Assembly (NCBI GenBank): GCA_027490155.1
Contig: JAIXYP010000060.1
Span: 1-64,000 of the forward strand
DNA: 64,000 nt
Source of the DNA: Cytophagaceae bacterium
GTDB taxonomy: Bacteria; Bacteroidota; Bacteroidia; Cytophagales; Flexibacteraceae
Direction of reading: 5' to 3'
The notes under the pieces are model-generated. The model saw only the letters and a list, made by a program, of their open reading frames with translations. It searched no databases and had not been told where the DNA came from. Positions 16,101 through 63,134 of the stretch are shown one piece after another. The first letter of the stretch is position 1. Each line of letters begins with the position of its first letter. The translations under genes and the position numbers were made by a program.

Positions 16101-18183
16101 TTTTGTCAACAATGCCACCTTTGGTACTGGTACTTGGGTCAGCACAGGCAACACGGTTGACATGACGGGGTCAGGTAGCCAAACCCTACCAGGTGCTGGC
16201 ATAATCCTCAATAACCTGAGCAACTCAGGCAACGGCAACCGTACTTGGGCGGCGAGCACAATCAACCTTTTAGGCACCTTCAACCCTGGTAATGGAACCT
16301 ATACCGCCCCAGTTGGCAGCACAGTTAACTATGCAGGAGGTAACGGACAAACCATCCAGGCGATTAACTACTATGCCCTCACTAGCATAAACAACAATCG
16401 GATGCTGAGCCCAACTGGGGTTATTGACATCGCACATAATTTCGCTCCGGGCTCTGGTGCCTATACCACTACCGGATCAACTGTTCGATTTAGTGGTGGC
16501 AATGCCAACATTGCAGGCGTCAATGGTGGTTTCCAAAACGTCACGATTGAAACCTCGGGCACCAAGACGTTAACATCTGCAGCATCTATGCTTGCAAACT
16601 CGACCCTAGCCTTGAACGCAGGTGTGTTGAATAATTCCAGCTTTGGCCTTAGCCTAGGCAACGGTTGCACAATCACCCGCACTACCGGAAGTCTATCCAC
16701 AGCGCCTACTTTTGGCACGAGTGCGAACGTTACTTATCTGGCAGGTCTATCCCCTGGTCCAGAGCTACCTACTTCAAGCACAGTCTTGCAAACTCTGACC
16801 ATCAACCCTGGGATCGGCAACACCGTAACATTCAACACAAGTTCTAATCCGATCGTTAACACCAACTTGGCCCTAGTTGATGGTAAACTGGCTATCGGGA
16901 CCAATACACTAACCTTGATGGCCACGGTATCAGGCGCTGGCAACATCTCTGGCGATGCAACAAGCAATCTGACCATTGCTGGCAGCACTGGCGTCAATGC
17001 TGGCAACCTTTCATTTGGTCCTTTGGCTGGTGACCGTCAGCTGAACAACCTTAGCATCACTCGTAATGGTGGCTCCTGTGCTCTAACTTTAGGCTCAAGC
17101 CTTGCGGTTGCAGGCACATTGGCTTTCGGAACCTCTAGCACTTGCAAAATCCTGACAGGGTCAAACACCCTAGATCTCGGTAGTACAGGAGTTATCACGG
17201 GCGAGGCCAATGGTCGATATGTAGTAGGCAATCTGTCCGTTAGTAGGACGCTCAATACAGGAAGCAACAGCTTTGGCAATGTTGGTGCCTCGATGTATTG
17301 CAGCAATTGCAACATCGGCCTCACAAGTGTCTTGCGCAAGTCCGGCAGCGGCACCTCTGTCCTGTCTAGTCTTGGTACACGGTCAATCAATCGGACATAT
17401 GATATTGAGCCAACTAGCCAGCCCGTAATCCCTGTCAACCTGCGCCTGAGCTGGATCTCAGACGATAACTATTATAGCACACCTGCGACCAATGGCCGTG
17501 TCTGGAGATCAACTGACAATGGTACAACCTGGACCAAAGTAGGTACCATGCAGAACTTCAACAATGGCTATATGGACGTACTGGCTGATCATTTTTCGGA
17601 CTGGACTATTGCTGATGCCAATAATCCATTACCATTGGAGCTCGTATCCTTCAGTGGGAGCTGGTTTAGCAATGCTGCTCAGCTTCGCTGGTCAACAATC
17701 TCAGAAAGCAATACCTCACATTTCGAGGTTGAGCGCAGTCAGGATATGGTATCCTACGATCGTATAGGAACCATTAAGGCCGCTGGTAATAGTACGAACT
17801 TGCTAAACTATCGTCATGACGATAAAACAGCTAAGGCTGGCAAACTGTACTACTATCGCCTTAAACAAGTTGATGTAGATGGGCAGTTCACCTATTGTAC
17901 TGCTATTAGGCTCAATACGGGCGAAGGTGGAACTTACATTGTCTATCCGAACCCTGCCACGGGCCATGCCTCTGTCACTTTGCCTTCAGACGCTGCCGGA
18001 GAATATCTAATCACGATCACCGACGCCGTAGGCAAGGTTGTTAAAACTGAGACCATCCAGAACGTGATGGGCGCAACCACTACAACACTCGACATAAGTG
18101 GCATGACCCAAGGGATTTATGTTGTATCCATATCTGGATCAATAATGTCCACCACAGTGAATCAGAAATTGGAGATCAGGTAA
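7153..18183 (+). CDS. Giant secreted beta-strand repeat protein with T9SS sorting domain
   Basis: Predicted cell-surface or secreted protein of 3,676 residues, probably an adhesin or matrix protein. A hydrophobic signal (LAILCFGLLAILVSSLPSFA, about 57-77) precedes a cleavage site at FAQ. The start is GTG at 7153; ATG at 7201 (residue 17) would shorten the long n-region and is an equally good choice. The body is rich in Asn, Thr, Ser and Gly and poor in charge, built of short beta strands. Three similar tryptophan modules occur near residues 82-115, 1881 and 2609 (W-x-T-G-T-N-W, NTTWSSNTVP, SNTGIWLGGNIPGTTDDV), each followed by beta repeats. Two RWFGT(S/T)GLPTT segments lie near 1718 and 2430. 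Near 3490 is a PLELVSFSG module, and the end (YPNPATG onward) is a type A sorting domain. No catalytic motif was seen. Confidence 0.85.
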   Translation: MPNLSELKNTITSPLRMTTNLNSNPVACCHKLTSSDNKLAQAPNPPSLGFAGKTLRSLAILCFGLLAILVSSLPSFAQTTYTWASTSAGGSWATGTNWTPTRSSPANNDVLVFNVSSNVTITAIPTQTIGRLRVTGSGVVTLQSSGNITLTVQAGGTSPQVDLAAGGIIVNGITSNTINLSVANGNTIRTTTGTSLAFTNLATLTNNGVTFTQNGVIFDFQSGSAYTHAVNQGTIPVGTWNANSTVSLTSMTNGNGSGLANIGNINQAFGNLTVACSQTTDLSLNVNSSFSVAGTFLVNGNTSGSAGTQYNGNGTRYALKLVSSVSGGSVTISLNHVTLTGSTNVCLVVFSDAPASGGNSVTVNVTGTITLGNNSNQARLIFVGNTAPATITCTGTSLTNIGNNSTLVFLDHGNLLNGCNVNVTMLSSISTSTSSSQFWPLRAYANSSSNGSSNSVLNATIGSFTTPCTITNQGTSGFNILAQNSGSAASQSNNQVTFNVYGNVVQNSGTPTITVNPTDRADANRQVATLNIYQTTGGLNGNLTISSGNFIMGQNNNVLASNGNRSFLNVEGNISGGTITSSNNRLNMVGQVRLFGPASRLATTGTLNLSNAIDLIIDNGVGNSTTLDNTVNLNSGFSYLKLTSGNLNLNAKTFSVAANTWVFKSLGTVSATPSYTAPINYHYSGTTTTGPELSTSLNTGTIVVASGANITSGGNFRFQTRFVNKGTFTQSTSFTTTSVNGVTLTDSAAAGTSTTFGQLATLNTSGGNWWVNDLSFTVAGNWSTSQTGGSIGLHFIKGNTVSSRTVNVVGNFTIGAGTYFDMTGNTTPTLTSSGPDHSLVVGGNFTYNNGNDLCRFVYINGNFLQAVNLTIGGTGSSAFGVSSITSTTNLTLKNLSFTGVGSVASSNVTCNIYGSVSNTATTNVTISGGRMNFLGGPYSFTQNLGTANGGTLSLFNVTMEGSGTVVNMLQNISISGTGTSDLWHSCAFGINSAGTNPVFRTNSFNLTFNATSNSVIFVLPALTSFNAGTGTVTFDVPTGVTAQLNFGVNFNNVVMTSSGGTVSNGNTYNYTIGGDLTVNSTFNLANNSATATFNKAGAQLISGNTGAINLRTVVINSGTTVNASFANNLTVAGSFTNNGTFNQTAGTFVPDNVSGVTDGRSTNNSTFYNLAFTGNGQLCLWDMSCTITNNLSFGSAGSGCTVQMAITGTPDYITTKNIIFNNGNNGYGIDLTAGNRNLAIDLSHTLEVSGSITHNSSNFPSFIAFHTRSGFINALNIVLKSTTATNSIDLSSNNTTCYLNNLTVDPTSQFPITGLIDARLYGTLNNASNNDFILTNGRISGYRTGATINNSGSGLLQVFNLSNTTGTLNITGAVRSAGTGSGTNNFQGAIDIQSGATLALGSSTFTTVGSGATYRFAGTLSAGTSTWIFANTGTPDFRTDNNVTFNNVTLALSGPSSVNLSRDNRTYTFNGTVEVSTFQFTATGGSNSASYVINGLFRTANLNGLNTNNSSAISTSNFGTLTLGSGSTIEYNASAGIQSVSALTNGYYALNLTNGGTKQAVGSFNIQGGSTMNINAGVTFNASTFTLGRTGSGTANFSINGTLQTGNANGFNAAAGSITTANTAITQGASSIIEYTGLVAQSVTNISSPSQNYLNLRLSNNIGLSLAANTVIETSLTLNGGSLTLGNNDLTLGTSASNLGTLTVNSGLLATTGTGRFVRWFGTSGLPTTTASGVRFPVGTTSSDRSIYLAFSSSTAISAGGTIGVNHSLANGISAVGSPFADGTGGDLVSINFRTNAGWSFSTPSAPTLSGGESILVEARGSNIAAITTSSEARFVNVPGPATGTSVNGAGTVTSPIAYRSDLSLANLTSAAWYIGAPTMQAVIVAVNGSAANWATNTTWSSNTVPTSTDYVVIPSSAAVVNLAGGAPYQCLTLQVDQGANLNLSTNTLVPATGGVVNIFGTASTQNANGIALSPSASISSTNTPTISFGTTGTANYNGTGTQTISGIQYNNLTISTARSGSPSITLDGTNSIGITGALSITATGVGSYISTGNTINFNGSLTQTIPAFSGYNNLTSSNSGARTLAGSGNIDIAGTFTPGTNTYTITGSTVRFVSSGTQTIPAFNFQNLTSTNSGTRTLASSGNIGIAGTFTPGTNAYTNIGSTVIYNGTGAQTVATFNYNNLTVNGGRGSNTVTIGATVGIAGALSLNSSVTYDFTNNNSIVNYNGVGNVSQTILGGNFFVYNNLTISSALTGANTVTLDPTNAIRLRAFSPVVNPGGAGYVVTGSQIQFTAGGATIPSFVYNNIATFNNAHTLPSGGNIEILGTWTTSTGLTLTPNTSTVKFSTANNITLPDAGPYFNLQITGAGIKTVGRVTVINNQLTLDNSYLSMGAGDGVEIGTSAASPGSLSVIGAAGIINNQGNNSAACYMLRWFGTTGLPTTFGNGGLFPIVRWYNNILSSRYLYLNFSSATAFSTGGSVRVTYNNGSGVSQDGSVPFTLFADNSGPTVNLVRGAAYRWAISTPSTPILAGGESIGLRLENAGSMRVSIPANTRAINFVTGSGIFQQAPGTSQSGGGTQTEPTCSKSGLTVANLTANNWMLATDKLVGQVIASGIWSNTGIWLGGNIPGTTDDVFIPAPYDVSLVSNITLNSLDINSGASLNTNSNIITLGAGQTLTVGGLLRLAGPSLNQANNSALSTNNAPVLVLGPSSTVEYSSSGAQTVDNLNYVNLTMSNTGSRTFNGNLGVSGSFNLNGSNAFTTTGSTIDFNGTTAITVPGFNYNNLTISGNKAANNVTFAGTVSMTGSFSPNATFSSGGYIVAGSTLEFTGTSASTVPAFTYNNLTLSGIRGSNNITFSGASTILGTFSPTATFGAGNYVTTGNTLTFDGTAAQTVPAFTYNNLSIAGNRTSNNVTLTGAINIVGSFSPSATFAGGNYVTTGSTVNFNGTGAQTIPAFNFNNLTVSNARGSNNLTLGAGTVGVAGDFVNNATFGTGTWVSTGNTVDMTGSGSQTLPGAGIILNNLSNSGNGNRTWAASTINLLGTFNPGNGTYTAPVGSTVNYAGGNGQTIQAINYYALTSINNNRMLSPTGVIDIAHNFAPGSGAYTTTGSTVRFSGGNANIAGVNGGFQNVTIETSGTKTLTSAASMLANSTLALNAGVLNNSSFGLSLGNGCTITRTTGSLSTAPTFGTSANVTYLAGLSPGPELPTSSTVLQTLTINPGIGNTVTFNTSSNPIVNTNLALVDGKLAIGTNTLTLMATVSGAGNISGDATSNLTIAGSTGVNAGNLSFGPLAGDRQLNNLSITRNGGSCALTLGSSLAVAGTLAFGTSSTCKILTGSNTLDLGSTGVITGEANGRYVVGNLSVSRTLNTGSNSFGNVGASMYCSNCNIGLTSVLRKSGSGTSVLSSLGTRSINRTYDIEPTSQPVIPVNLRLSWISDDNYYSTPATNGRVWRSTDNGTTWTKVGTMQNFNNGYMDVLADHFSDWTIADANNPLPLELVSFSGSWFSNAAQLRWSTISESNTSHFEVERSQDMVSYDRIGTIKAAGNSTNLLNYRHDDKTAKAGKLYYYRLKQVDVDGQFTYCTAIRLNTGEGGTYIVYPNPATGHASVTLPSDAAGEYLITITDAVGKVVKTETIQNVMGATTTTLDISGMTQGIYVVSISGSIMSTTVNQKLEIR
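13141..13960 (+). repeat. Degenerate 54-61-residue coding repeats, first block
   Basis: In-frame repeats inside the giant gene, each opening with an (F/Y)NGTGxQT(I/V) strand followed by a YNNLT strand. Units start at 13141, 13324, 13489, 13651 and 13825, giving spacings of 183, 165, 162 and 174 bases. They are diverged in both DNA and protein, consistent with old duplication. Confidence 0.75.
15451..16161 (+). repeat. Regular 177-base (59-residue) tandem coding repeats
   Basis: Four consecutive units start at 15451, 15628, 15805 and 15982, exactly 177 bases apart; the last unit is 60 residues. Each reads F-x-G-T-x-A-x-T-(V/I)-P-x-F-x-(Y/F)-N-N-L, then a GSF/GTFSP strand, then Y-(V/I)-x-(T/A)-G-(S/N)-T. 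The regular spacing and higher similarity mark the most recently amplified part of the giant protein. Confidence 0.85.
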
Positions 18184-40183: not shown

Positions 40184-42511
40184 ATGACCAAGCACCAACA
40201 ACCAAAGCCAGTATCAATTGCCGTATTGCTGCTGATAATGGCCTTTTCATTAATAGCGCCGACAATTTGGGCACAAAGCCAGGGCCATTGGGAAAACGAT
40301 AAGCCAAAGGTTGTGTTGTCAGAGGTGCTGATCGACAATTATCAGATTAGGGTCAGCACAACGAAAGGCAACATCAAGATTGATGGTCAGCTATTTGAGC
40401 AGGACTGGAAAGAAGCAGATTCGATCAAGCAATTCTACCAAAACTACCCTTATGATACTGGCTATGCCTTCTCCGGAACGGTTGTCCGGATGATGCGAGA
40501 CGACAAATACCTCTATATCAGTGCCGTCTGCCAAGACCAAATTCAGGGCAGATATATTTCTACCAGCCTGGCTCGAGATTGGAACACCAGAGACACCGAT
40601 GGGTTTCAATGGGTAATTGATCCTTTTTTGGATAAAACCAATGGGTTTGGCTTCGCTGTCTCTGCTTATGGGGCTCAGCGCGAAGGCCTCATAAGCAGTG
40701 GAGGAAATGGAGGCATCAATACCTCCTGGGACAATAAATGGTATAGTGCGGTATCCCAACACCACGGCTATTGGGTTATGGAAGCCGCTATCCCGTTCAA
40801 AAGCCTGCGATACAAAGCTAACCTAGCCCACTGGCGCATCAACTTTGCCCGGACTGACTACAAACGCAACGAGATGAGCGTTTGGGTGCCGATGTTCCGC
40901 AACTTTTCGATTGCTAACCTCGGCTTTACAGGCAAAGCAACTTTTGATGATCCTGTACCTAAAGCAGGCTCCAATGTTTCGATTATCCCTTACGGCAACC
41001 TCAGGCTGAACCAAGAAAAAAAAACAGACGGTAGCTTTACCAATAAAGGCGAGCCAAGTGCAGGCCTTGATGCCAAAGTTGGCCTTGGAAGTGCCACAAA
41101 CCTTGACCTGACGATCAACCCAGACTTTTCGCAGGTGGAAGTTGACAGGCAAGTGACCAATCTGAGCCGGTTTGAGCTATTTTTCCCTGAGAGACGCAAC
41201 TTCTTTTTGGAAAACCAAGACGTTTTTGACGGCTATGGTAGCGCTAGGGTCCGTCCCTTTTTTAGCCGACGAATCGGTATCGCGCTGGACACAGGCTTAG
41301 GTCTATATGTTAACAATCCCATCCTACTTGGGGCTAGGCTCACAGGTAAATTGGGTCAGGATTGGCGTCTTGGTGTATTGGCTGCTCAAACGGCCAATAA
41401 CCCAACTGCTGGCAACAAGGGTCAAAACGATGTTATGATCTCAGTCCAGCGGCGTGTATTTGATAGGTCTTTTGTGTCAGCATTCCTTATCAACAAACAA
41501 GGGATAGGAAGTGCTAATGGACTTAGCTTTGGCACCTATGACAATGACTTCTCACGGAATGCAGGCCTCGAGTACAACCTCATTTCGGCAGATAACCGTT
41601 GGACAGGCAAGGCATTTTATCACCTATCACAAACTGGTCGTTTGCAGGACAGTAGACTAATTGACAACAAGGCAATGGCTGCTGGAATTAACCTAGCCTA
41701 CAATGATCGCAACCTTTCTTTTGAAATCTCAGCAGAAAATGTTGGGAGCAACTACACTGCCGATCTAGGGTTTAGGCCCAGATCCAACTTTACCTACCTT
41801 TCTCCCGAGGCTGGCTACGTTTTTTTATGTAAAAAAGGACCTATTGCTAGCCATGGTCCTTATTTGGCGGGCGAGCTTTACCTGATGCCCAACCTAAATG
41901 GCCAGTACAGGCTAACTGACCATAATTTTGACCTGAGCTATTATGTTGCAGATAACAGCACCCGAAGCTTGCGCCTAGCAGTGGGACAAGACTTTATTTA
42001 TCTATTTGCCCCATTTAATCCTTCGGTTAGTACCGGAGGTGATACATTAAGTCGTGGCAGCTCCTACACAACACAATATATCAGGGGTTCATACGCTAGT
42101 GATATTCGTAAACCTATATTTTTGAATTTGGCAGCAAGTTATGGTGGCTTTTATGTCGGCACCAAATTCAGTGCAGATGCCACGCTCAACTATCGCCTTA
42201 TGCCCTATATGGCCCTCGGTATCACGGCCAACTATAACAGGCTAAATTTACCAGAAACATGGGGCAGTAAGGACCTATGGCTCCTAGGACCTAATATCAA
42301 CCTGACCATGACCAATAATTTGTTTTTCAAGGTTTATTACCAGTACAACACACAGATAAACAACACCAACATCAATGCACGGCTCCAGTGGCGTTACAGC
42401 CCAGCCTCTGATTTGTTTATCGTCTATACTGACAACTATACCATTAGCAACAATATGCAGTTCAAAAACAGGGCATTGGTACTGAAGCTGACCTATTGGC
42501 TCAATGCCTAA
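40184..42511 (+). CDS. DUF5916 outer-membrane protein with CBM9-like domain
   Basis: Secreted or outer-membrane protein of 775 residues. A signal peptide (about 1-31, ending TIWAQ) precedes a CBM9-like sugar-binding domain (about 50-240; IKIDGQLFEQDWKEAD, RDDKYLYISAVC). The rest is beta-rich with repeated alternating hydrophobic strands ending in an aromatic-rich tail (LVLKLTYWLNA), as expected for an outer-membrane barrel; this is the DUF5916 layout. The family's function is not established, but its position first in a run of glycan hydrolases suggests polysaccharide binding or transport at the surface. The next gene starts 71 bases on. Confidence 0.82.
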   Translation: MTKHQQPKPVSIAVLLLIMAFSLIAPTIWAQSQGHWENDKPKVVLSEVLIDNYQIRVSTTKGNIKIDGQLFEQDWKEADSIKQFYQNYPYDTGYAFSGTVVRMMRDDKYLYISAVCQDQIQGRYISTSLARDWNTRDTDGFQWVIDPFLDKTNGFGFAVSAYGAQREGLISSGGNGGINTSWDNKWYSAVSQHHGYWVMEAAIPFKSLRYKANLAHWRINFARTDYKRNEMSVWVPMFRNFSIANLGFTGKATFDDPVPKAGSNVSIIPYGNLRLNQEKKTDGSFTNKGEPSAGLDAKVGLGSATNLDLTINPDFSQVEVDRQVTNLSRFELFFPERRNFFLENQDVFDGYGSARVRPFFSRRIGIALDTGLGLYVNNPILLGARLTGKLGQDWRLGVLAAQTANNPTAGNKGQNDVMISVQRRVFDRSFVSAFLINKQGIGSANGLSFGTYDNDFSRNAGLEYNLISADNRWTGKAFYHLSQTGRLQDSRLIDNKAMAAGINLAYNDRNLSFEISAENVGSNYTADLGFRPRSNFTYLSPEAGYVFLCKKGPIASHGPYLAGELYLMPNLNGQYRLTDHNFDLSYYVADNSTRSLRLAVGQDFIYLFAPFNPSVSTGGDTLSRGSSYTTQYIRGSYASDIRKPIFLNLAASYGGFYVGTKFSADATLNYRLMPYMALGITANYNRLNLPETWGSKDLWLLGPNINLTMTNNLFFKVYYQYNTQINNTNINARLQWRYSPASDLFIVYTDNYTISNNMQFKNRALVLKLTYWLNA

Positions 42512-54091: not shown

Positions 54092-54457
54092 ATGAATTAC
54101 GAAACGATCAGGGCCTATTGCCTATCCAAACCTGCCACCACCGAAGGCCTTCCGTTTGGCCCCGGTACTTTGGTGCTCAAGGTGGCACATAAAATGTTTG
54201 CCCTGCTACCGCTTGACGAGCCTGAACGCTTAAGTGTAAATCTCAAATGTGATCCTGAAAAGGCAGAAGAGCTAAGAGAGGCATATCCTGATGCCATATT
54301 GCCAGGCTACCACATGAGTAAAAAACACTGGAACACTGTGCTGTTGAACGAAGGTCTTCAACACAAGTTGGTACAAGAGCTGATAGACCACTCGTACCAG
54401 TTGGTGGTCGATAGCCTACCCAAAAAAGTACGTGAAGCTATGCTGCTAGGCCAATGA
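54092..54457 (+). CDS. MmcQ/YjbR family protein
   Basis: Small cytoplasmic protein of 121 residues, the usual length of the YjbR/MmcQ (CyaY-like fold) family. It has the N-terminal helix MNYETIRAYCLSKPATTEGLPFGP, the LVLKVAHKMFALL strand pair, SVNLKCDPEKAEELRE and the family end G-Y-H-M-S-K-K-H-W-N-T-V. Members are proposed to bind DNA, but the role is not well established. The last bases (ATGA) overlap a possible early start of the next gene, so translational coupling with the GT9 gene is likely. Confidence 0.85.
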   Translation: MNYETIRAYCLSKPATTEGLPFGPGTLVLKVAHKMFALLPLDEPERLSVNLKCDPEKAEELREAYPDAILPGYHMSKKHWNTVLLNEGLQHKLVQELIDHSYQLVVDSLPKKVREAMLLGQ

Positions 54458-54510
54458 GGGTACATTGGCGGTTGCAAATGACCAAAATTGCTTCCTACTT
54501 GCATCCTGAG

Positions 54511-55545
54511 ATGAAGATACTGGTATTGCGTTTTTCGGCCATTGGGGACATCGTCTTGACCACACCCGTCATTAGGTGCCTCAAACAACAGCTACCCGAT
54601 GTCGACATCCATTTTGCCACCCAGCTCCAGTATGCCTTCCTGCTACAGCACAACCCTTACGTTGATCAGGTTCTGACTTGGGACAAGGCAGATAAATCGG
54701 ATCTTGAAAGGCTGATCAAGACCTTAAGGGCTGGTGACTATGACTATGTTATCGATCTGCACCACAACCTTAGGACCGCCAAGATCAAACGAGCCCTAAA
54801 CAAGGTACCAGCATTTAGCTTTGACAAGTGTAATATCCAGAAGTGGCTCTACGTCAACTTCAAGTGGGATCGCATGCCTGATGTCCATATCGTCGATCGT
54901 TACATGGATACAATCAGCAGACTAGGTGTGATCAATGACCAACAAGGACTGGATTACTTTTTCAACAAGGCAAACTCGCCAACCATTGACTGGTCTAAAT
55001 GGGTAGATACTGGTTCCTCCACCCCACTACCTGATGACTATATCGCTGTAGTGATTGGGGCTACCCATTTCACCAAACAGCTACCCGTTGTTAGGTTGAT
55101 CGAGCTATGTAAAACAGCTTGGCATCGGTACCAGAAACCAATTATTATCCTTGGCGGACCTACTGATATGGAACGTGGGCAGATGCTATCTACAGCCCTA
55201 AAGTCAGATAATATACCTCATCATGATACAACAGGGCTACTGACCTTCGATCAATCAGCAGAGGTAATACGCCAATCGTGGCTTGTCTTCAGCAATGATA
55301 CTGGGCTGATGCACGTTGCCGCTGCATTCAAGAAAAAAGTAGTGAGCATCTGGGGTAATACCACTCCAAGGCTAGGTATGTACCCTTACCTAACACCGAA
55401 TATTGTTTGGCAACATTCTACTGGTCTAGGCTGCCGTCCTTGTAGCAAAATCGGGTTTTCGAGCTGCCCCAAGGGTCACTTCAAGTGTATGCAGGACCTA
55501 CCATTCGACTGGTCCGCAGTTGATGTCCTTATGCAAAAAGCCTAA
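54511..55545 (+). CDS. GT9 family (heptosyltransferase-like) glycosyltransferase
   Basis: GT-B glycosyltransferase of 344 residues related to lipopolysaccharide heptosyltransferases. ATG at 54511 gives the conserved start MKILVLRFSAIGDIVLTTPV; the open frame extends 19 codons upstream, but those residues are not typical. Other motifs are VIDLHHNLRT (about 84-93), a Rossmann strand VVIGATHFTKQLP, IIILGGPTDMERG and the donor-site FSNDTGLMHVAAAFKKKVVSIWGNT near 265-290. It would add a sugar to the lipopolysaccharide core or a related glycolipid. A perfect terminator hairpin begins within its last codons. Confidence 0.88.
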   Translation: MKILVLRFSAIGDIVLTTPVIRCLKQQLPDVDIHFATQLQYAFLLQHNPYVDQVLTWDKADKSDLERLIKTLRAGDYDYVIDLHHNLRTAKIKRALNKVPAFSFDKCNIQKWLYVNFKWDRMPDVHIVDRYMDTISRLGVINDQQGLDYFFNKANSPTIDWSKWVDTGSSTPLPDDYIAVVIGATHFTKQLPVVRLIELCKTAWHRYQKPIIILGGPTDMERGQMLSTALKSDNIPHHDTTGLLTFDQSAEVIRQSWLVFSNDTGLMHVAAAFKKKVVSIWGNTTPRLGMYPYLTPNIVWQHSTGLGCRPCSKIGFSSCPKGHFKCMQDLPFDWSAVDVLMQKA

Positions 55546-55564
55546 CCAGTAGGTTAGGCTTTTT
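55535..55564. terminator. Terminator overlapping the GT9 stop codon
   Basis: AAAAAGCCTAACC (55535-55547) pairs perfectly with GGTTAGGCTTTTT (55552-55564) over an AGTA loop. The TAA stop (55543-55545) lies inside the left arm. Symmetric A and T ends let it also terminate the convergent nuclease gene. Confidence 0.88.
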
Positions 55565-55586
55565 ACAAACATCTTAGTCAGATTAA

Positions 55587-56174
55587 TTAGTTGCGCTTGT
55601 TGAGCTCGTCCCTAATCTGTGCAGCACGCTCATAGTCTTCGGCATTCAGAGCCTCGTCTAGCATGGTCTTGAGCTGCTCGGTACTGGCATCCCGTACTTG
55701 ATCTTGTAACGATTTCTTCTTTGGACCTTTGGCTGCAACTGGTTTCGGATCGTCATCCTCTGGCTCGGACAAGATGATACCTGCCTCCGACAAGATTACA
55801 TCATTGGTATAAATATCGACCCCAAAACGAAGCCCAACCGCAATGGCATCGGACGGCCTTGCATCAATGTTATATGTATTGATGCCATCTGTTGTCACGA
55901 TTTGAGCATAAAAAACACCTTCGCGCAGGTCGTTGATGTAGATCTCCTCAACAAAAAAGTTGAATGCCTGACCAAATGCCTTGAACAGATCATGGGTCAG
56001 TGGACGTGATGGCTTGATTTTTTCGATCTCAATCGCGATGGCTTGAGCCTCAAACATTCCGATAACAATCGGAAGGCGCCTATTGCCACCTTCTTCGCCC
56101 AGAACCAAGGCAAAGGAGCCTTGTTGTGATTGGCTGGAAGAAAGTGCAAGTATTTCTAGCTTGATTTTAGCCAC
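55587..56174 (-). CDS. Bifunctional nuclease (DUF151) with UvrB/UvrC motif
   Basis: Cytoplasmic protein of 195 residues from the GTG start, which gives M-AKIKLEILALSSS as in homologs; the frame continues upstream to 56279, but that N-terminus is not conserved. The DUF151 core (about 5-135) includes NRRLPIVIGMFEAQAIAIE and NTYNIDARPSDAIAVGLR. A Lys-rich linker (about 140-160) joins a C-terminal UVR helical hairpin (QLKTMLDEALNAEDYERAA, about 168-186), which in other proteins mediates contacts with UvrB/UvrC or Clp partners. The nuclease activity named for the family is known from few members. This domain pair is common in Bacteroidota. Confidence 0.85.
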   Translation of the reverse strand: MAKIKLEILALSSSQSQQGSFALVLGEEGGNRRLPIVIGMFEAQAIAIEIEKIKPSRPLTHDLFKAFGQAFNFFVEEIYINDLREGVFYAQIVTTDGINTYNIDARPSDAIAVGLRFGVDIYTNDVILSEAGIILSEPEDDDPKPVAAKGPKKKSLQDQVRDASTEQLKTMLDEALNAEDYERAAQIRDELNKRN

Positions 56175-56301
56175 TTCTGTTTGATAAACTAGGGTCGCAT
56201 AATGCTGCTGCCCGATGTGTGTACTAGTTACAGATATTCCGCCAACTACCAATGTAAAACTGACGTTTAGCCCCAGCAAGCTGGCCTAACGCAAAAGATC
56301 A

Positions 56302-56322
56302 GGGCTGCAATAATAGCAGCCT
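56302..56322 (-). terminator. Weak hairpin downstream of etfA
   Basis: GGCTGC (56303-56308) pairs with GCAGCC (56316-56321) over a seven-base loop. On the minus strand it is followed by CTGATCTTTTG, a poor T tract. It is 59 bases past the etfA stop and may end that transcript in part. Confidence 0.35.
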
Positions 56323-56380
56323 AAATCCAGAATAATTCCGGATAATCAATGGGCACACAAATAATTCTGGCACCCTAGCC

Positions 56381-57340
56381 TTATTTGAGTGCCTGATTGA
56401 GCGCTGGAAGGATCTTGAAAACATCGCCAACAATGCCATAGTCCGCCACTTTAAAGATTGGCGCCTCAGGGTCTGAGTTAATTGCAACAATACATTTGCT
56501 GCTGCTGATACCTGCCACATGCTGGATTGCTCCGCTAATCCCGGCAGCAATGTAGAGCGAAGGGCTCACCTTGATACCTGTTTGGCCAACGTGCTCGTGG
56601 TGCGGGCGCCAATCCAGATCACTAACAGGTTTGCTGCAGGCAGTAGCTGCACCAAGTGTTTTGGCAAGGTCTGTGATTAAGCCCCAGTTTTCGGGACCTT
56701 TCAAGCCACGACCACCGCTAACGACTAGGTCAGCCTCAGGTAACAAGATTTCTCCTGTGGCCTTTTCGGTGCCTTTGCTGGTAAGTGCTTTGTCTGCTGC
56801 ACTAAGCGAAACAGGAAGTAACTCAACAGTTGTAGAGGCACTATTTGGCTCAAAACCAGTAGCAGCTCCTTTTTTGACAGTTAGGATACGGAGGGTAGCA
56901 TTGAGGGCAACGTCCGAAAAAGCTTTGCCAGTGTATATGCTACGCTTGACGCTAAGAACACCATTATTAAGTACTGGCAGGTCCACGACATTTGTTGCAA
57001 GGGCGGCACCTGTAGCAGCTGCAACTCGTGGTGCCATTGCATCTACCAAAGAGCTTTTAGCAAGTACTACCAGATCAGGATTGCTGATCGCGATGGCTTG
57101 TTTCAGGACAGCGGCAGAGGTCATGATATCTACCTGCACAAATGCACTGTCGTCCGCATGTAGCACCTTTTGGACACCATAGCCACCAAGCGAACCTAGG
57201 TCCGTGGTGGTAGGGCCAGCGATAACAGCTGTAATTGCACCACCACCCAAGGCTTGAGCAGTCTTATGAGCGTATGCAAGGGCCTCTAGGCTTGACTTTT
57301 TGACGGAGCCGTCAGACTCCAAAAATACCAGAATATTCAT
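56381..57340 (-). CDS. etfA: Electron transfer flavoprotein alpha subunit
   Basis: FAD-binding subunit of the soluble electron transfer flavoprotein, 319 residues, the normal length. It would take electrons from acyl-CoA and related dehydrogenases and pass them to the quinone pool through ETF:quinone oxidoreductase. The C-terminal FAD domain has VSGGRGLKGPENW, HEHVGQTGIKVSPSLYIAAG, SGAIQHVAGI and INSDPEAPIFKVADYGIVGD, all canonical. It follows etfB (115-base gap) on the same strand. No acyl-CoA dehydrogenase gene lies nearby. Confidence 0.95.
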   Translation of the reverse strand: MNILVFLESDGSVKKSSLEALAYAHKTAQALGGGAITAVIAGPTTTDLGSLGGYGVQKVLHADDSAFVQVDIMTSAAVLKQAIAISNPDLVVLAKSSLVDAMAPRVAAATGAALATNVVDLPVLNNGVLSVKRSIYTGKAFSDVALNATLRILTVKKGAATGFEPNSASTTVELLPVSLSAADKALTSKGTEKATGEILLPEADLVVSGGRGLKGPENWGLITDLAKTLGAATACSKPVSDLDWRPHHEHVGQTGIKVSPSLYIAAGISGAIQHVAGISSSKCIVAINSDPEAPIFKVADYGIVGDVFKILPALNQALK

Positions 57341-57455
57341 CAGACAAGGGTCTTGATTGTATGTGAGGCGGGATGGGTAATTGTCCTAAAGACGAAACCC
57401 AATATTGCCATTTGGTGTAAAATGGAATAGGAACTGAATGGTCGATTGTCGAGGA

Positions 57456-58193
57456 CTAAAGCACTTTAGCTTCATTCCGGAGCAAGTCAACAAGCTCAGC
57501 AACATTGTCGGCAGCAATCATCTTGCAGGCCCCTTTAGCTGGTGGCAGGCTGAATTGTTGGACGGTAGTTGAGGTTGCTGTCACATTCGGTTCAACCACT
57601 TTGAGTGGCTTTGTCCGAGCACCCATAATACCACGCATGTTCGGGATTTTCCACTCGGCAATTGGCTCTTGGCAACCTGCTACTAGAGGCAAGTTCACCT
57701 CGATCACTTCTTTGCCACCTTCAATCTCTTTCGAGACCGTAGCCAGACCACCGACAACGTCTAAACGCATCACTGGCGCCACAGATGGAATACCAAGAAG
57801 TTCACCAACCATACCATGCACTTGCCCACCATTGTGGTCAATGCTTTCGCGTCCCATCAGGATTAGGTCATATTGTTCGGCTTTGCATACTGCTGCAATC
57901 TCTTGCGCTACCTGCCAAGCGTCGGTCGGGTTGACATTGATCCTGATCGCATCATCAGCACCAATAGCCAGTGCTTTACGAAGCGTGGGTTCGGTCTCTA
58001 CCAAACCAACATTGAGGGCAGTGACGGTGCCGCCTTGCGCCTCTTTAAGCTCAATGGCACGTGCAAGGGCAAAGTCGTCATACGGACCGATGATGAAGGT
58101 AACGCCCGCAGCGTTAAACTCCTTTCCGTCCGGCGTAAAGCTGATTTTGGTTGTCGTGTCCGGTACGTGGGTGATGCAGACCAGTATCTTCAT
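57456..58193 (-). CDS. etfB: Electron transfer flavoprotein beta subunit
   Basis: AMP-binding beta subunit of the electron transfer flavoprotein, 245 residues, partner of the alpha subunit encoded next. It opens with MKILVCITHVPDTTTKISF and has NPYD-like GPYDDFALARAIELKE (about 37-52), the nucleotide loop LMGRESIDHNGGQVHGM (about 111-127) and the conserved ADNVAELVDLLRNEAKVL end. Gene order etfB-etfA matches most bacteria. The 200 bases upstream have only imperfect promoter matches. Confidence 0.95.
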   Translation of the reverse strand: MKILVCITHVPDTTTKISFTPDGKEFNAAGVTFIIGPYDDFALARAIELKEAQGGTVTALNVGLVETEPTLRKALAIGADDAIRINVNPTDAWQVAQEIAAVCKAEQYDLILMGRESIDHNGGQVHGMVGELLGIPSVAPVMRLDVVGGLATVSKEIEGGKEVIEVNLPLVAGCQEPIAEWKIPNMRGIMGARTKPLKVVEPNVTATSTTVQQFSLPPAKGACKMIAADNVAELVDLLRNEAKVL

Positions 58194-58392
58194 ATCTAAT
58201 TGGTGCTAGTGCTAATCAGCCGGTTTCCTACTGCAGAAATCACAAAATAGCAACTGCACATGCAGGTGCCCTGACTAGCCTTTTGTATCAAGCCCCAAAT
58301 ATGATACATGGGTGCCAAAATCGATACACCTCAACCTGATTTCGGCCAAAATTATTGATAGGCAACCCTGTTAGCCGCCAAAGCTTCTTAGG

Positions 58393-59271
58393 ATGATCAG
58401 TCATGCACCAAGTCCCAAATCCAAACCTAGCAAAACACTGGCCCTGATCCATTACCTTTGTGGTTTAGCACAAGCCTGCACACCTATGGGCCAAGACCCC
58501 TCTACCTTTCAGGTTGACAAAACGCCACGGATAGATAAGACCTTGTTTCAGGAAGGCCACTTTCTAGGTCGCCCAGCTGATTTTGACGATCTCATTGTCC
58601 AGCGTCGGCTACAACTTACGGAGGCGATACCGAATTTCACAGGCAAAGATCTGACCCTTGTAGATGTTGGTTGTGGCAATGGAGCATCTGCTTTTTTCCT
58701 GGCCGATAAGTTTAAGTATGTGCTTGGTATCGATGTCTGGGAAGGCCATCGCAGCTCCTTTGAGGCCTATAAAACCCATAGTGGCATCACCAATGTGGAT
58801 TTCCTGAAACTAGACCTTGAGAGCGAATCACATCCAACCCAATATGATCGGCTAATCAGCTTTGAGGTCATCGAGCACCTTAATGATGATCGGAACGTGA
58901 CCAGCTTCTTCAACTTGGTCAAACCTGGCGGGCAGATTGCGATTTCGGTGCCGAACAAGTGGTGGATCTTCGAAACCCACGGTGCTAACCTCCCACTCCT
59001 ACCCTGGAACCGAGTGCCATTCTTTAGCTGGCTACCAACCTTCATCCATGAGCGCTTTGCGAACGCCCGTATTTATACACCTGCCCGCATCCGCCGTGTG
59101 CTCGAGCGTGCTGGCTTTGAGGTGATTAGCGTCCAGAACATAACCGCACCATTGGACGTATTGAAACCATCAGGCTTCAAACGTTGGCTACAGGCCAATA
59201 TCTTCAGGGGGAACACAACGACGATACCGTTCAAAGCGACGGCGTTGTTTGTGCATGCGGTGAGGCGGTAG
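58393..59271 (+). CDS. Class I SAM-dependent methyltransferase
   Basis: Methyltransferase of 292 residues. The core shows LTLVDVGCGNGASAFFL (motif I, about 85-101), LGIDVWEG after strand 2 and a SFEVIEHLNDD post-motif (about 156-166), then KPGGQIAISVPN. This UbiG-like pattern is common in small-molecule and glycan methyltransferases. The part after residue 195 (FETHGANLPLLPWNRVPFF) resembles methyltransferases found in glycan gene clusters. The first 30 residues are weakly conserved, and ATG at 58489 would be another start. It precedes the AT-rich orphan gene but is not obviously linked to it. Confidence 0.8.
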   Translation: MISHAPSPKSKPSKTLALIHYLCGLAQACTPMGQDPSTFQVDKTPRIDKTLFQEGHFLGRPADFDDLIVQRRLQLTEAIPNFTGKDLTLVDVGCGNGASAFFLADKFKYVLGIDVWEGHRSSFEAYKTHSGITNVDFLKLDLESESHPTQYDRLISFEVIEHLNDDRNVTSFFNLVKPGGQIAISVPNKWWIFETHGANLPLLPWNRVPFFSWLPTFIHERFANARIYTPARIRRVLERAGFEVISVQNITAPLDVLKPSGFKRWLQANIFRGNTTTIPFKATALFVHAVRR

Positions 59272-59341
59272 GGTTTGGAAATTCTAGTATGGGCATAATG
59301 ATGGCAAGCAGTAAGTTAACAACTTGTTTGCAAAAAACTAT

Positions 59342-59372
59342 TTTGCATATACGGATACAACTACTAGTTTTG
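59342..59372 (+). promoter_or_regulatory. Consensus Bacteroidota promoter of the AT-rich orphan gene
   Basis: TTTG (59342-59345), a spacer of exactly 19 bases and TAGTTTTG (59365-59372) match the TTTG-N19-TAnnTTTG consensus in full, the best promoter in the window. The element ends 13 bases before the ATG, so the leader would be very short. Confidence 0.65.
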
Positions 59373-59385
59373 AAAAAAAACTAAT

Positions 59386-61374
59386 ATGTCCAAGCTCCTT
59401 ACTCTACTAATCGTTCAAGTATCAATGTTAATGCTCTTCATTGGGACTACTCAAGCCCAATCGTCGAGTACGATCGAGGATCTTATAGCTAGGCTACCTT
59501 CCACTCCCTATATTATTGAGAATATCAAGGACTCTTCTGACTACAGCAGAGAAGCAACAGAAAAATTAATTAAGGAACACTACAGTATATCGCCAAAATT
59601 AATCACAATAAAACCCGAAGAGATAGTGAGAATTAAAAATATTACAGATTCAATTGGAAAAGAGGTCACACAAATGACAAGATCAATAAATAGCGAATTA
59701 TCAATCTATGATAACTTAATTGGCAAAATAAACAGTAACGAAAAGGTCGATCCGATAATTTCGGAGATAAAAAACCTATTACAACTAATCGAGACAACAA
59801 GAATTCAAGAGCTAAATAGCATAAAGGAATCCTATTACCAAACTTTCTTTTGCTTAGTAAAAGCGAAAAATTACAGTGACTCAATGCCATATCCGGAATA
59901 TCAAGCTGAGTGCTACAAGGCTATTGATAATGACGTAGTTGAAAAAGGAATTGGAGTTTTCGTTGAATCAAAATCGAAAATTGAAAACAAAGAATTGATA
60001 TATGATAGCGTTAAGACAGTAATCAAAGGTACAATGAACATACAAAGTTCGAAACGACAGATTGATCAAGAAAATCAAATATTTAGAGTTGCCTTCGAGT
60101 TAAAAGTAAAAATAAGTGACATTGTTGAATCTGGGACTAATGTTTCGGAGCTTGAGCTTGACAAATTGAGAGAAAATAAAAATTGGTATATATTCACTAG
60201 TAAACCATCGGCCTTTGATGGGATGTCAGGAAACAACGTCAACCAACCTATAGTTGACCAGAATGGAGACACATTGGATTCTGATGATATACAATTTATT
60301 GAGACATGTATTTTTAATTACGAAGATGTAAAATTTGAAAACCAAGAAAATAACAGTAAATTAAAAAAGCAACTTTCTGATCTTGCAATTAAGATCAAAG
60401 GAATTGAAGACCAAATTTCTAACCGAAGAAAAGTTCTTGCCGTTAATATCAGAAACATCAAAGATGCTATTTCTGAGATCCGTTATTTAAATATTTCATC
60501 CTTTGACTCACTAGTCCCTCAAAAAATCATTGATGAAGCCAAGCTCCATCTAAAACAAAAAAAGGAATCAAAAACAAAAATTAAAACAATTATCGAGTAT
60601 AATAATATTATGCTAACTCAATCTAGTCCTGTAAAAATTTATCCAGCTGAATCAGTCCATCACGACATTGCTTCAGCATTGTTTCCTATTCTGAGGGACG
60701 GCTCAAGAACTAACGCACAGAAAAAAATGCAAGAATTAACGTTAACAAAAAACGGGATTACTGATCAGTACGAAAATAAATTCAATGAAAACAAGACATT
60801 TATACTTGATAAAATTTGGTTCTATGTTGTTAAAAAATCTGACCATATGGAAGCATATGTTCTATTAAAAAACAGAACTGCTGTTACCTATAGTGAAAAT
60901 GAATTAGAAACTGACCTTGATAAGAAAGAAAGATTAAAAAAAATTGAAAGAGAAAACCAGCTAAAATTGCAGCAAATTGCAAAACGTCAAGCCTACATTC
61001 AAGATAGTATCCTTTTAGCTAAGAAAAACAGGGAAGATTCCATTGCAAAGATCACTGCATGGAATAACTCTTGGCATGTTGTATCAAAAGACTCCATATT
61101 TATCCGACATGACTTTTATAAAGACTACAATTCCTATACGGATAGATATGTTTCTTCAAAAATATCCTCTAAAATCCACTGTTCTAGCCTAAAATATTTA
61201 GTATGTCATATTATCCATCCAAGCAGAGGGGAATACACTTTCGAACTTGTCAAAAGTGTTGATTCATATTCTGCTTCGGTTCCGTGGTTGAATCTAAGAG
61301 TAAGTGTGCGTGCGAACTATAATTTACTGTTAGATGATTACATATTGGATGTCAAATTGTCTGATCTCCACTAG
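59386..61374 (+). CDS. AT-rich orphan secreted protein of unknown function
   Basis: Unrecognised protein of 662 residues. A signal peptide is clear (MSKLLTLLIVQVSMLMLFIG, cleavage near TQAQ). The chain is Lys-, Ile-, Asn- and Ser-rich with long helical, probably coiled-coil stretches around 320-345 (NNSKLKKQLSDLAIKIKGIED) and 508-555 (KKERLKKIERENQLKL), then a beta-like C-terminal 100 residues containing two Cys close together. There is no sorting domain, lipobox or membrane helix after the signal. Its codons are far more AT-rich than all its neighbours (for example 17 G+C in the 60 bases at 59581-59640, against 27 of 60 at 58801-58860), which suggests acquisition from an AT-rich Bacteroidota. 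Its stop overlaps that of the convergent GT4 gene. Confidence 0.72.
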   Translation: MSKLLTLLIVQVSMLMLFIGTTQAQSSSTIEDLIARLPSTPYIIENIKDSSDYSREATEKLIKEHYSISPKLITIKPEEIVRIKNITDSIGKEVTQMTRSINSELSIYDNLIGKINSNEKVDPIISEIKNLLQLIETTRIQELNSIKESYYQTFFCLVKAKNYSDSMPYPEYQAECYKAIDNDVVEKGIGVFVESKSKIENKELIYDSVKTVIKGTMNIQSSKRQIDQENQIFRVAFELKVKISDIVESGTNVSELELDKLRENKNWYIFTSKPSAFDGMSGNNVNQPIVDQNGDTLDSDDIQFIETCIFNYEDVKFENQENNSKLKKQLSDLAIKIKGIEDQISNRRKVLAVNIRNIKDAISEIRYLNISSFDSLVPQKIIDEAKLHLKQKKESKTKIKTIIEYNNIMLTQSSPVKIYPAESVHHDIASALFPILRDGSRTNAQKKMQELTLTKNGITDQYENKFNENKTFILDKIWFYVVKKSDHMEAYVLLKNRTAVTYSENELETDLDKKERLKKIERENQLKLQQIAKRQAYIQDSILLAKKNREDSIAKITAWNNSWHVVSKDSIFIRHDFYKDYNSYTDRYVSSKISSKIHCSSLKYLVCHIIHPSRGEYTFELVKSVDSYSASVPWLNLRVSVRANYNLLLDDYILDVKLSDLH

Positions 61375-62825
61375 CTCACCCCCACCAACCAATCCAGCAC
61401 AGCAGCAAACTTGCCAGCCAAAGCCTTTCGGCTATATTGCTGGTAACCTTTGCTTTGGCATATTGGCGTGCCGGATTGATAGGCGGCAAACAATGCAAGG
61501 ATGTTGTCCTTGAGCATGGCTGCATCGTAATAACCAGAAAACAATCCAGCCCCAGTATCGATCAAAACCTGTTGGGCATCCCCTCCCTCTGGCCCAATGC
61601 AAAGTATCGGGCGACGTAAGGCTAGGTATTCGAAGATTTTACCTGTTAGGATTCCATTAGCGTTGTTCACCCTATCAATCATCAAAAGCAACACCTGCGA
61701 GCTCCGCTGGGTTTCCAATATTTGGTGGTGCGGCTGGTAGGCCCTGAAGTCAAGCCAAGGTGTCAATCCAAAAGTCTGAGCCGACTCCTGCACAACAGGG
61801 TCAACCTTACCATAAAAATGGAGTTGAAGGGCTTCGGCAAAGTCCTCATTGGTCTGAACAAGATCCTGCAACACCTGCCAGAAAACTTGGTGGTTCCTCG
61901 GATAACCCAGCATCCCTACGTAGGTGATCGTAAATTTTTCGTCTGGCTTTGGCTCTGCATCAAATACAAAATCAGCCTCATCATACCCATTATGGATAAC
62001 CAAGGTCTTTAAGGGCTTATGCGGTGGTTTGACCAAGGTATCCATATCTGCAGCCATTGCGTGGCTAACCGCCACTACGGCCTCCGCCTCAGTCAATACA
62101 CCTTGCTCTAGTGTCTCGTGTTTGCGCCGAGCAAACCCGCTAAGCTTCAACTCTTGATAAAACCCGATTTGCGTCCATGGGTCACGGAAATCAGCTAGCC
62201 AAGGCAAATTTACACCTTGCTTTTTGAGCAGCCGTTTCAGCTTCAAGGCAATGACGTGCATACTATGTGGTGGACCTGTACTCACGATAGCCTCTACTGG
62301 CTGCTCCTTCAGGTAATTGGCCAGATATGCCACCGAAGGATTGATGAAGAACATCCTAGTATCGGGCACGAAGAGGTTAGACCGCACCCAGATGGCTAAT
62401 CTTGACTTCCAGCTAGACTGTTGTCCCTTACCAACATACAAGGGGTTAACATTTGCAGTGGCCTTCTGGCCTTTGCCCATAAACTTATTGTAGAGGTCAA
62501 AAGGCTCCCAAATTGGTTCTCTGATGACTTCAATACCTTCTGGAATTTCGGCCAAGAGGGCATCATCACGGAGCTCAAACTGGCTGTTGGAAACGGTATA
62601 AACCACTGGCTCGTATCCATAAGCCCGCAAATACTTCACTGTCTTTAGCCATCGCTGAACCCCACTACCTGCTGAAGGTGGCCAATAATAGGTTATTACC
62701 AGAACCCGACGACGAGCGTTGCCATTGTCAGCCTCAGACAAAGCAGATTGAGAAATGGCGTTGCGAGAATCTGATGTGGTAGGGTTGTCCAAAGGTCTGG
62801 CGAAGAAACAAATATGAGGGGTCAA
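61371..62825 (-). CDS. GT4-like family glycosyltransferase
   Basis: GT-B glycosyltransferase of 484 residues for surface glycan synthesis. The N-terminal domain begins with VLVITYYWPPSAGSGVQRW (about 41-59), a glycine-rich acceptor-side loop typical of the family. The C-terminal domain has FTITYVGMLGYPRN (about 298-311) and the donor-site stretch GILTGKIFEYLALRRPILCIGPEGGD with the invariant Glu. The first 40 residues are unconserved, and no other ATG fits, so the true start may be a different codon. Its stop codon overlaps the stop of the AT-rich gene by a shared CTAG. Confidence 0.82.
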   Translation of the reverse strand: MTPHICFFARPLDNPTTSDSRNAISQSALSEADNGNARRRVLVITYYWPPSAGSGVQRWLKTVKYLRAYGYEPVVYTVSNSQFELRDDALLAEIPEGIEVIREPIWEPFDLYNKFMGKGQKATANVNPLYVGKGQQSSWKSRLAIWVRSNLFVPDTRMFFINPSVAYLANYLKEQPVEAIVSTGPPHSMHVIALKLKRLLKKQGVNLPWLADFRDPWTQIGFYQELKLSGFARRKHETLEQGVLTEAEAVVAVSHAMAADMDTLVKPPHKPLKTLVIHNGYDEADFVFDAEPKPDEKFTITYVGMLGYPRNHQVFWQVLQDLVQTNEDFAEALQLHFYGKVDPVVQESAQTFGLTPWLDFRAYQPHHQILETQRSSQVLLLMIDRVNNANGILTGKIFEYLALRRPILCIGPEGGDAQQVLIDTGAGLFSGYYDAAMLKDNILALFAAYQSGTPICQSKGYQQYSRKALAGKFAAVLDWLVGVS

Positions 62826-62980
62826 ATTTACGACATGTGGTTAATTTTTGACGTTCATATACCCCATTGACCCTGACAGAAAAATCGTTACAGACCCATC
62901 AAGGCCCCTTATCAGGCCGCTAACCAGTCCTTGGCAGCATCCAATGGCTTTTTGTGGACATCAACAGTGCCTAGCATAGG

Positions 62981-63011
62981 TTTGGTAACTTAACGGTTTG
63001 TTCTTAATTTG
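62981..63011 (+). promoter_or_regulatory. Putative promoter of the glutamine amidotransferase gene
   Basis: TTTG (62981-62984), a 19-base spacer and TTAATTTG (63004-63011, 7 of 8 to TAnnTTTG) form a near-consensus promoter. It lies nine bases before the open frame's first ATG (63021) and about 120 bases before the homology-supported ATG (63135). Confidence 0.42.
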
Positions 63012-63134
63012 GTTATCTAAATGGTGCCAAAGGTCAGACGCCTGTTCTATCATGGATGTGCGGGCCAAGGGCTTAACCAAAGCCAGATAGTTCAACCAGA
63101 GATCCTATCCACTTCAAACCCAACCCCTCAAGAC

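Follow-up and report, generated by a model that had tools for sequence, protein, structure and literature searches.

The locus and its neighbours

The window, by which we mean the whole 64,000-nucleotide stretch of Cytophagaceae DNA analysed here, contains an AT-rich gene that is referred to below as the orphan. It lies between a methyltransferase gene and a glycosyltransferase gene, in a segment that distinguishes this genome from that of its congener G001 (Table 1).

Table 1. Features of the orphan locus, in window coordinates
Feature	Coordinates	Strand	Basis or remark
SAM-dependent methyltransferase (Methyltransf_23/11), left neighbour	58393..59271	+	conserved in G001
Species-specific segment, with 284 bp of unrelated DNA in its place in G001	59272..61377		alignment with G001
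Promoter match TTTG-N19-TAGTTTTG	59342..59372	+	inside the species-specific segment, ending 13 bases before the ATG
Orphan gene, 662 aa, ATG start	59386..61374	+	open frame and translation
Glycosyltransferase (Glyco_trans_4_4), right neighbour	61371..62825	-	conserved in G001

In G001 the two neighbouring genes adjoin on contig C74 with their orientation unchanged, and the flanks are 87.9% and 87.5% identical at the DNA level. The alignment with G001 covers window positions 54143-59271, breaks off exactly where the methyltransferase stop codon ends and restarts at 61378. Between these flanks lie 2106 bp in the window and 284 bp in G001, and none of the 2106 bp (0/2106) align. All of the 13 further intervals that were compared with G001, of which five are intergenic and one of these a convergent spacer, align at 80-95%. 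The species-specific segment starts immediately downstream of the methyltransferase stop codon and reaches into the penultimate sense codon of the glycosyltransferase gene. The last codon and the stop codon (TAG) of the window's glycosyltransferase consequently fall within the segment, where the end of this gene overlaps the 3' end of the orphan by four bases, and the G001 glycosyltransferase extends a few codons into its own 284 bp. Because the flanks align, the replaced stretch is unrelated and the glycosyltransferase ends differ, the whole spacer has been exchanged. Judged by the alignment with this one congener, the gene shows the pattern expected of an acquired gene, namely absence from a close relative in which both flanks are conserved.

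The 284 bp of G001 (L070:5132-5415) bear no detectable likeness to the orphan gene, with best local scores of 27 and 23 against a mean of 23 and a maximum of 34 over 100 shuffles. They have a GC content of 0.359, compared with 0.433 +/- 0.042 for 289 host intergenic regions, and no copy was found when the other 18 members of a 19-genome set were searched. This spacer may be a remnant of another insert, and since it too is low in GC, both species may carry replaced sequence here. As the comparison covers two species only, it does not polarise gain against loss.

A reading of the segment as an integron cassette was considered and dropped, and one as mobile-element cargo gained no support here, given that no integrase, recombinase or mobile gene was seen by eye beside the orphan, that the window holds no tRNA gene that could have served as an insertion site, and that the flanking repeats are limited to short, chance-like pairs. 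No Rfam match occurs at 58300-62000.

Composition and coding signal

The first-pass annotation had remarked on a sharp difference in base composition, and this is borne out: the GC content of the gene is 0.328, against 0.493 +/- 0.030 for the open reading frames (ORFs) of the genome, a deviation of about -5.4 sd from a baseline of 492 sampled ORFs of at least 100 aa (782 kb). Along the window, GC shifts stepwise at both edges of the gene. The orphan is not unique in its AT-richness, as five of the 492 sampled ORFs have a GC content of 0.36 or less. At the three codon positions its GC is 0.393, 0.284 and 0.308, compared with 0.541, 0.397 and 0.539 in 185 host ORFs of at least 200 aa.

The frame is clearly intact and coding, in agreement with the earlier view that the gene is not decaying. 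An open frame of 662 codons has a chance of about 3e-24 at the composition of the orphan, the five remaining frames of the region contain between 32 and 81 stops each, and the codon-position signal amounts to 29 mbit, with a maximum of 6.5 among 200 shuffles. Codon usage, which had been proposed as a check on foreign origin, gave a divided answer. Under synonymous codon models from two samples of low-GC Bacteroidota (G012, 47 ORFs; G701, 19 ORFs) the orphan scores -1.066 and -1.075 per codon, a much closer fit than that of host genes (-1.328 and -1.370, sd 0.05-0.06). Under the host model, however, it scores -1.196 against -1.160 +/- 0.052 for host genes, and because this is only 0.7 sd below the host mean, codon choice alone is compatible with a resident gene.

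Promoter and leader

In the relevant passages of PMC7366714 the Bacteroidota promoter consensus is given as TTTG near -33 and TAnnTTTG at -7, and the -33 motif is described there as not identified in Flavobacterium johnsoniae. The predicted promoter of the orphan agrees with this housekeeping-sigma consensus at every defined position. It had been called the best promoter in the window; the match is indeed perfect, but it is one of five such matches, and another, at 62951-62984 upstream of the gene at 63021, is also well placed. With five perfect matches against a chance expectation of 1.9 +/- 1.3 (five or more occurred in 2 of 100 shuffles), the match backs expression only moderately. It nevertheless suggests that the orphan is expressed and, from the position of the -7 element, that the leader would be some 6-10 nt long.

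Predicted export and architecture of the protein

Hydropathy shows a single hydrophobic peak at residues 1-22, the remainder of the protein reaching at most 0.74 over 19 residues, so that residues 1 to about 24 are predicted to form a Sec (SPI) signal peptide with no further transmembrane segment. The first of the five cysteines is residue 156; there is accordingly no lipobox, and a lipoprotein (SPII) reading was dropped for want of a cysteine at the end of the signal peptide. A type IX secretion system (T9SS) cargo reading was set aside as well, because Pfam found no C-terminal sorting domain such as PF18962 in the orphan, although it detected PF18962 in a 3676-aa protein of the same window, which served as a positive control. 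The proposal of export without a T9SS tail or lipobox thus agrees with the prediction. The mature protein would have a computed mass of about 74 kDa and a pI of 7.3. The control protein (7153-18183, plus strand) also gives a weak match to a G8 domain.

The coiled-coil character suggested earlier finds partial support. A hydrophobic periodicity of about 3.5 residues is significant in three of the six helical segments (77-115, 122-150 and 320-366), borderline in one (P 0.09) and not significant in two, and the long charged helix at 504-560 has no significant heptad-like periodicity. The predicted layout, read from low-confidence models, consists of helical N-terminal and central parts, a charged helix at about 504-552 and a beta-rich C-terminus. 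AlphaFold2, run without relatives, reached a pLDDT of only 36 on the full-length protein and of 45 on the C-terminal part, where it was confident solely in a helix at about 510-540.

Searches for relatives

The orphan passes no family cut-off, as had been expected of a protein from no recognised family. Pfam, NCBIfam and PADLOC gave no match at E<=1, the best PHROGs and PDB matches had E values of 0.25 and 0.52, and the thirds of the protein and residues 398-533, searched separately, stayed below every Pfam cut-off (best E 0.015). A search of 58 other related genomes gave no homologue at E<=1e-3, and the gene is thus absent from the congener and from nine other family members among them; vertical presence in close relatives, named beforehand as the observation that would count against a foreign origin, was not seen. 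The support that the first-pass annotation had hoped for, homologues in AT-rich Bacteroidota, did not materialise either, in that none was established at E<=1e-3 in an order-wide search of 389 genomes or a phylum-wide search of 394, two sets that partly overlap. GTDB contigs and four viral-contig scans, all of which detect close relatives only, yielded no homologue, and 50,697 phage and 72,556 plasmid records gave no match at E<=0.01. The DNA of the segment matched the 58 other genomes over stretches of 24-55 bases only (E 2e-4 to 0.01, 13 genomes), which are taken as AT-rich chance matches.

The weaker matches do not alter this picture. For the whole protein, 13 of 389 order genomes and 13 of 394 phylum genomes contained a match at E<=0.1 per genome, with about 39 expected in each case (best three candidates scored per genome, own genome left out); for the C-terminal 193 aa at E<=0.05 the counts were 13 of 389 and 21 of 394, with about 19 and 20 expected (best eight candidates per genome). 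Chance predicts about as many, and the number of weak matches is therefore no evidence of homology. Among the part that was inspected (18 and 17 loci, partly the same), many are recognisable as unrelated enzymes of the ParC-like, LpxC/FabZ, trehalase-like and AraC kinds, alongside a few unnamed secreted proteins (L003, L084) that may yet be relatives. The same search recovered the glycosyltransferase next to the orphan in 9 of the 11 genomes searched, the own genome included, down to 36% identity, from which its reach can be put at about that level. We therefore class the gene as a putative ORFan, with no homologue beyond its species at E<=1e-3 in the databases searched.

A CBM9-like similarity

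One lead stands out from these searches. A CBM9_1 family of genus g134 can be aligned to residues 410-560 of the orphan at about 25% identity; it is represented by three proteins of low-GC Bacteroidota (L015, L021 and L025) that score 33-40 composition-corrected bits against the orphan, each above all 300 of 300 shuffles. The three were chosen as the best matches of a search of 395 genomes, in which some 0.3-2 chance matches are expected at 40 bits, and they are mutually 86-87% identical, so that the evidence amounts to one match and not three. A model built from them ranks the orphan best of 492 sampled ORFs (E 9e-6, in a small set). Comparison of the set with the orphan by hhalign gave a probability of 39% (E 3e-4 for a single comparison); the true CBM9_1 protein of the window scored lower, at 1.7%, and hence this comparison has little power. 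The Pfam model CBM9_1 (PF06452) does not match the whole orphan or residues 398-533 at E<=1, whereas it does match L025 (8.2e-14) and the window protein at 40184-42511 (9.6e-8). The similarity is thus best treated as an unproven lead toward a glycan-binding surface role, and not as a family assignment. The window protein just named (plus strand) is a 775-aa DUF5916 protein with a CBM9_1 domain.

Other AT-rich genes

A second AT-rich orphan of the same genome (G000) lies at C68:63090-64490 (L093:13090-14490, minus strand). It encodes 466 aa at a GC content of 0.322, and a search of 18 relatives gave no match to it. Its 3' end overlaps by 12 bases the end of a convergent gene, an AraC-type regulator by eye. 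On the 5' side, homology to G001 (C353) sets in some dozen bases before the start of this orphan, and the TPP riboswitch belonging to the next gene is therefore retained. The two orphans have in common their low GC, their lack of relatives and a 3' overlap with a convergent neighbour. The proteins themselves show no significant similarity (best E 0.019 over 26 residues), and that of the second orphan differs, as judged by eye, in carrying hydrophobic stretches within the C-terminal third and in lacking an evident signal peptide. Overlapping convergent pairs are rare, with 4 in 95 sampled, and two of the four involve these orphans. Both ORFs of more than 300 aa with GC <=0.36 in the 782 kb sampled overlap their neighbour, compared with 2 of 93 other convergent pairs (Fisher P 0.0013, post hoc), which hints at a shared insertion route. 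Such a route, in which a whole convergent spacer would be exchanged or cut at a stop codon and the newcomer's stop would come to lie inside the end of its neighbour, is in our estimation improbable. If it did operate, its products would be unrelated proteins, of which the 662-aa one would be exported.

Several further genes of low GC were noted. Zorya type II-like genes ZorE2, ZorB2 and ZorA2, detected by PADLOC at L100:5206-8215 (G000 C40:45206-48215, minus strand), have GC contents of 0.35-0.42. An AT-rich lipoprotein-like gene with DUF6843 (L062:1189-2585, minus strand), possibly an immunity gene, directly follows a gene piece that looks RHS-core-like by eye and has no Pfam match. An AT-rich ORF of 178 aa (L055:16283-16819, plus strand, GC 0.346) matches nothing in Pfam or PADLOC.

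Origin of the gene

The simplest account is that the lineage gained a low-GC single gene together with its own promoter, which would now be enclosed by the stop codons of two host genes that converge on it. Acquisition, which we consider likely, draws its support from the foreign composition, from codon usage that suits low-GC Bacteroidota and from the exchanged site in G001; the donor would be a low-GC member of the Bacteroidota or one of its mobile elements, and the event would be a gain in this lineage, not a loss from G001. The product would leave the cytoplasm via Sec and reach the periplasm or, without the T9SS, the surface. Acquisition and export together, the reading that we favour, is given a probability of roughly 0.6. 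Going further, the helical segments might act as spacer or oligomerisation parts and the beta-rich C-terminal parts as a contact region, which might bind glycans should the CBM9-like similarity at 410-515 be real. That the protein is an accessory envelope or surface component, as export and architecture might suggest, is our best guess at its role, though one to which we give rather less than even weight.

The orphan resembles other horizontally acquired ORFans in its atypical composition, its lack of established relatives and its absence from a congener. It is unlike the usual ORFan in its predicted export, its consensus promoter and a segment bounded by the stop codons of two neighbours, and 662 aa is long for an ORFan. 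With the strain-specific exported or surface accessory proteins of Bacteroidota it would share the Sec signal peptide, helical segments and, by a weak prediction, a beta-rich C-terminus, and it differs from them in having no lipobox, T9SS tail or domain found by Pfam.

The main rival to acquisition is a fast-evolving resident gene of the genus that was lost in G001, with the 284 bp as the residue left by deletion and drift. Only two species of the genus were compared, the low GC of the G001 spacer is what a decayed AT-rich gene would leave, and the codon score under the host model is near normal. Against this, the 284 bp retain no similarity to the gene while neighbouring intergenic regions still align well, and the 58 other genomes contain no match at the threshold used; we regard loss of a resident gene as unlikely.

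In this genome AT-richness may also mark genes of conflict, and the orphan could on that basis be phage or mobile-element cargo, or a gene for antagonism or defence. The Zorya II-like genes are among the lowest-GC genes sampled, which makes defence or antagonism cargo conceivable, and the AT-rich DUF6843 gene sits beside a piece that appears RHS-like by eye. The orphan, however, stands alone, with no partner, immunity gene, integrase or mobile gene seen by eye beside it; PADLOC has no match, PHROGs only the insignificant one given above, and the phage and plasmid records and viral-contig scans none. Defence proteins that act inside the cell do not typically carry a signal peptide. A more specific idea of RHS or defence cargo was dropped, for lack of a PADLOC model match and because the gene is solitary, and the conflict reading as a whole seems to us quite unlikely.

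Birth de novo from AT-rich spacer DNA would explain why no homologue is established and why the congener has a spacer at the locus. Yet 662 codons with a signal peptide, a strong codon-position signal and a promoter match are too long and gene-like to have arisen recently from a spacer of about 300 bp, and host spacers average a GC content of 0.433, which leaves this origin very improbable. An assembly chimera or contamination would account for the foreign composition but is scarcely credible for a gene inside a 141 kb contig whose flanks are collinear with G001 on both sides, in an assembly with a listed contamination of 0.21.

Significance

Taken overall, the orphan is probably an acquired ORFan, ordinary in kind, whose replaced site is unusually clean; on present evidence it counts as one of many such genes. 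The first-pass annotation had put it forward as the strongest candidate for an undescribed function, and this stays a guess, because neither a secure domain nor a partner gene nor a confidently predicted structure gives a pointer to what the protein does. If expressed, the gene would give one of two sister species an undescribed exported protein. The exchange at this site can be read to the base, which makes the locus a usable case for studying the origins of large orphans, and it also lends itself to asking whether genes land preferentially at convergent stop-codon junctions.
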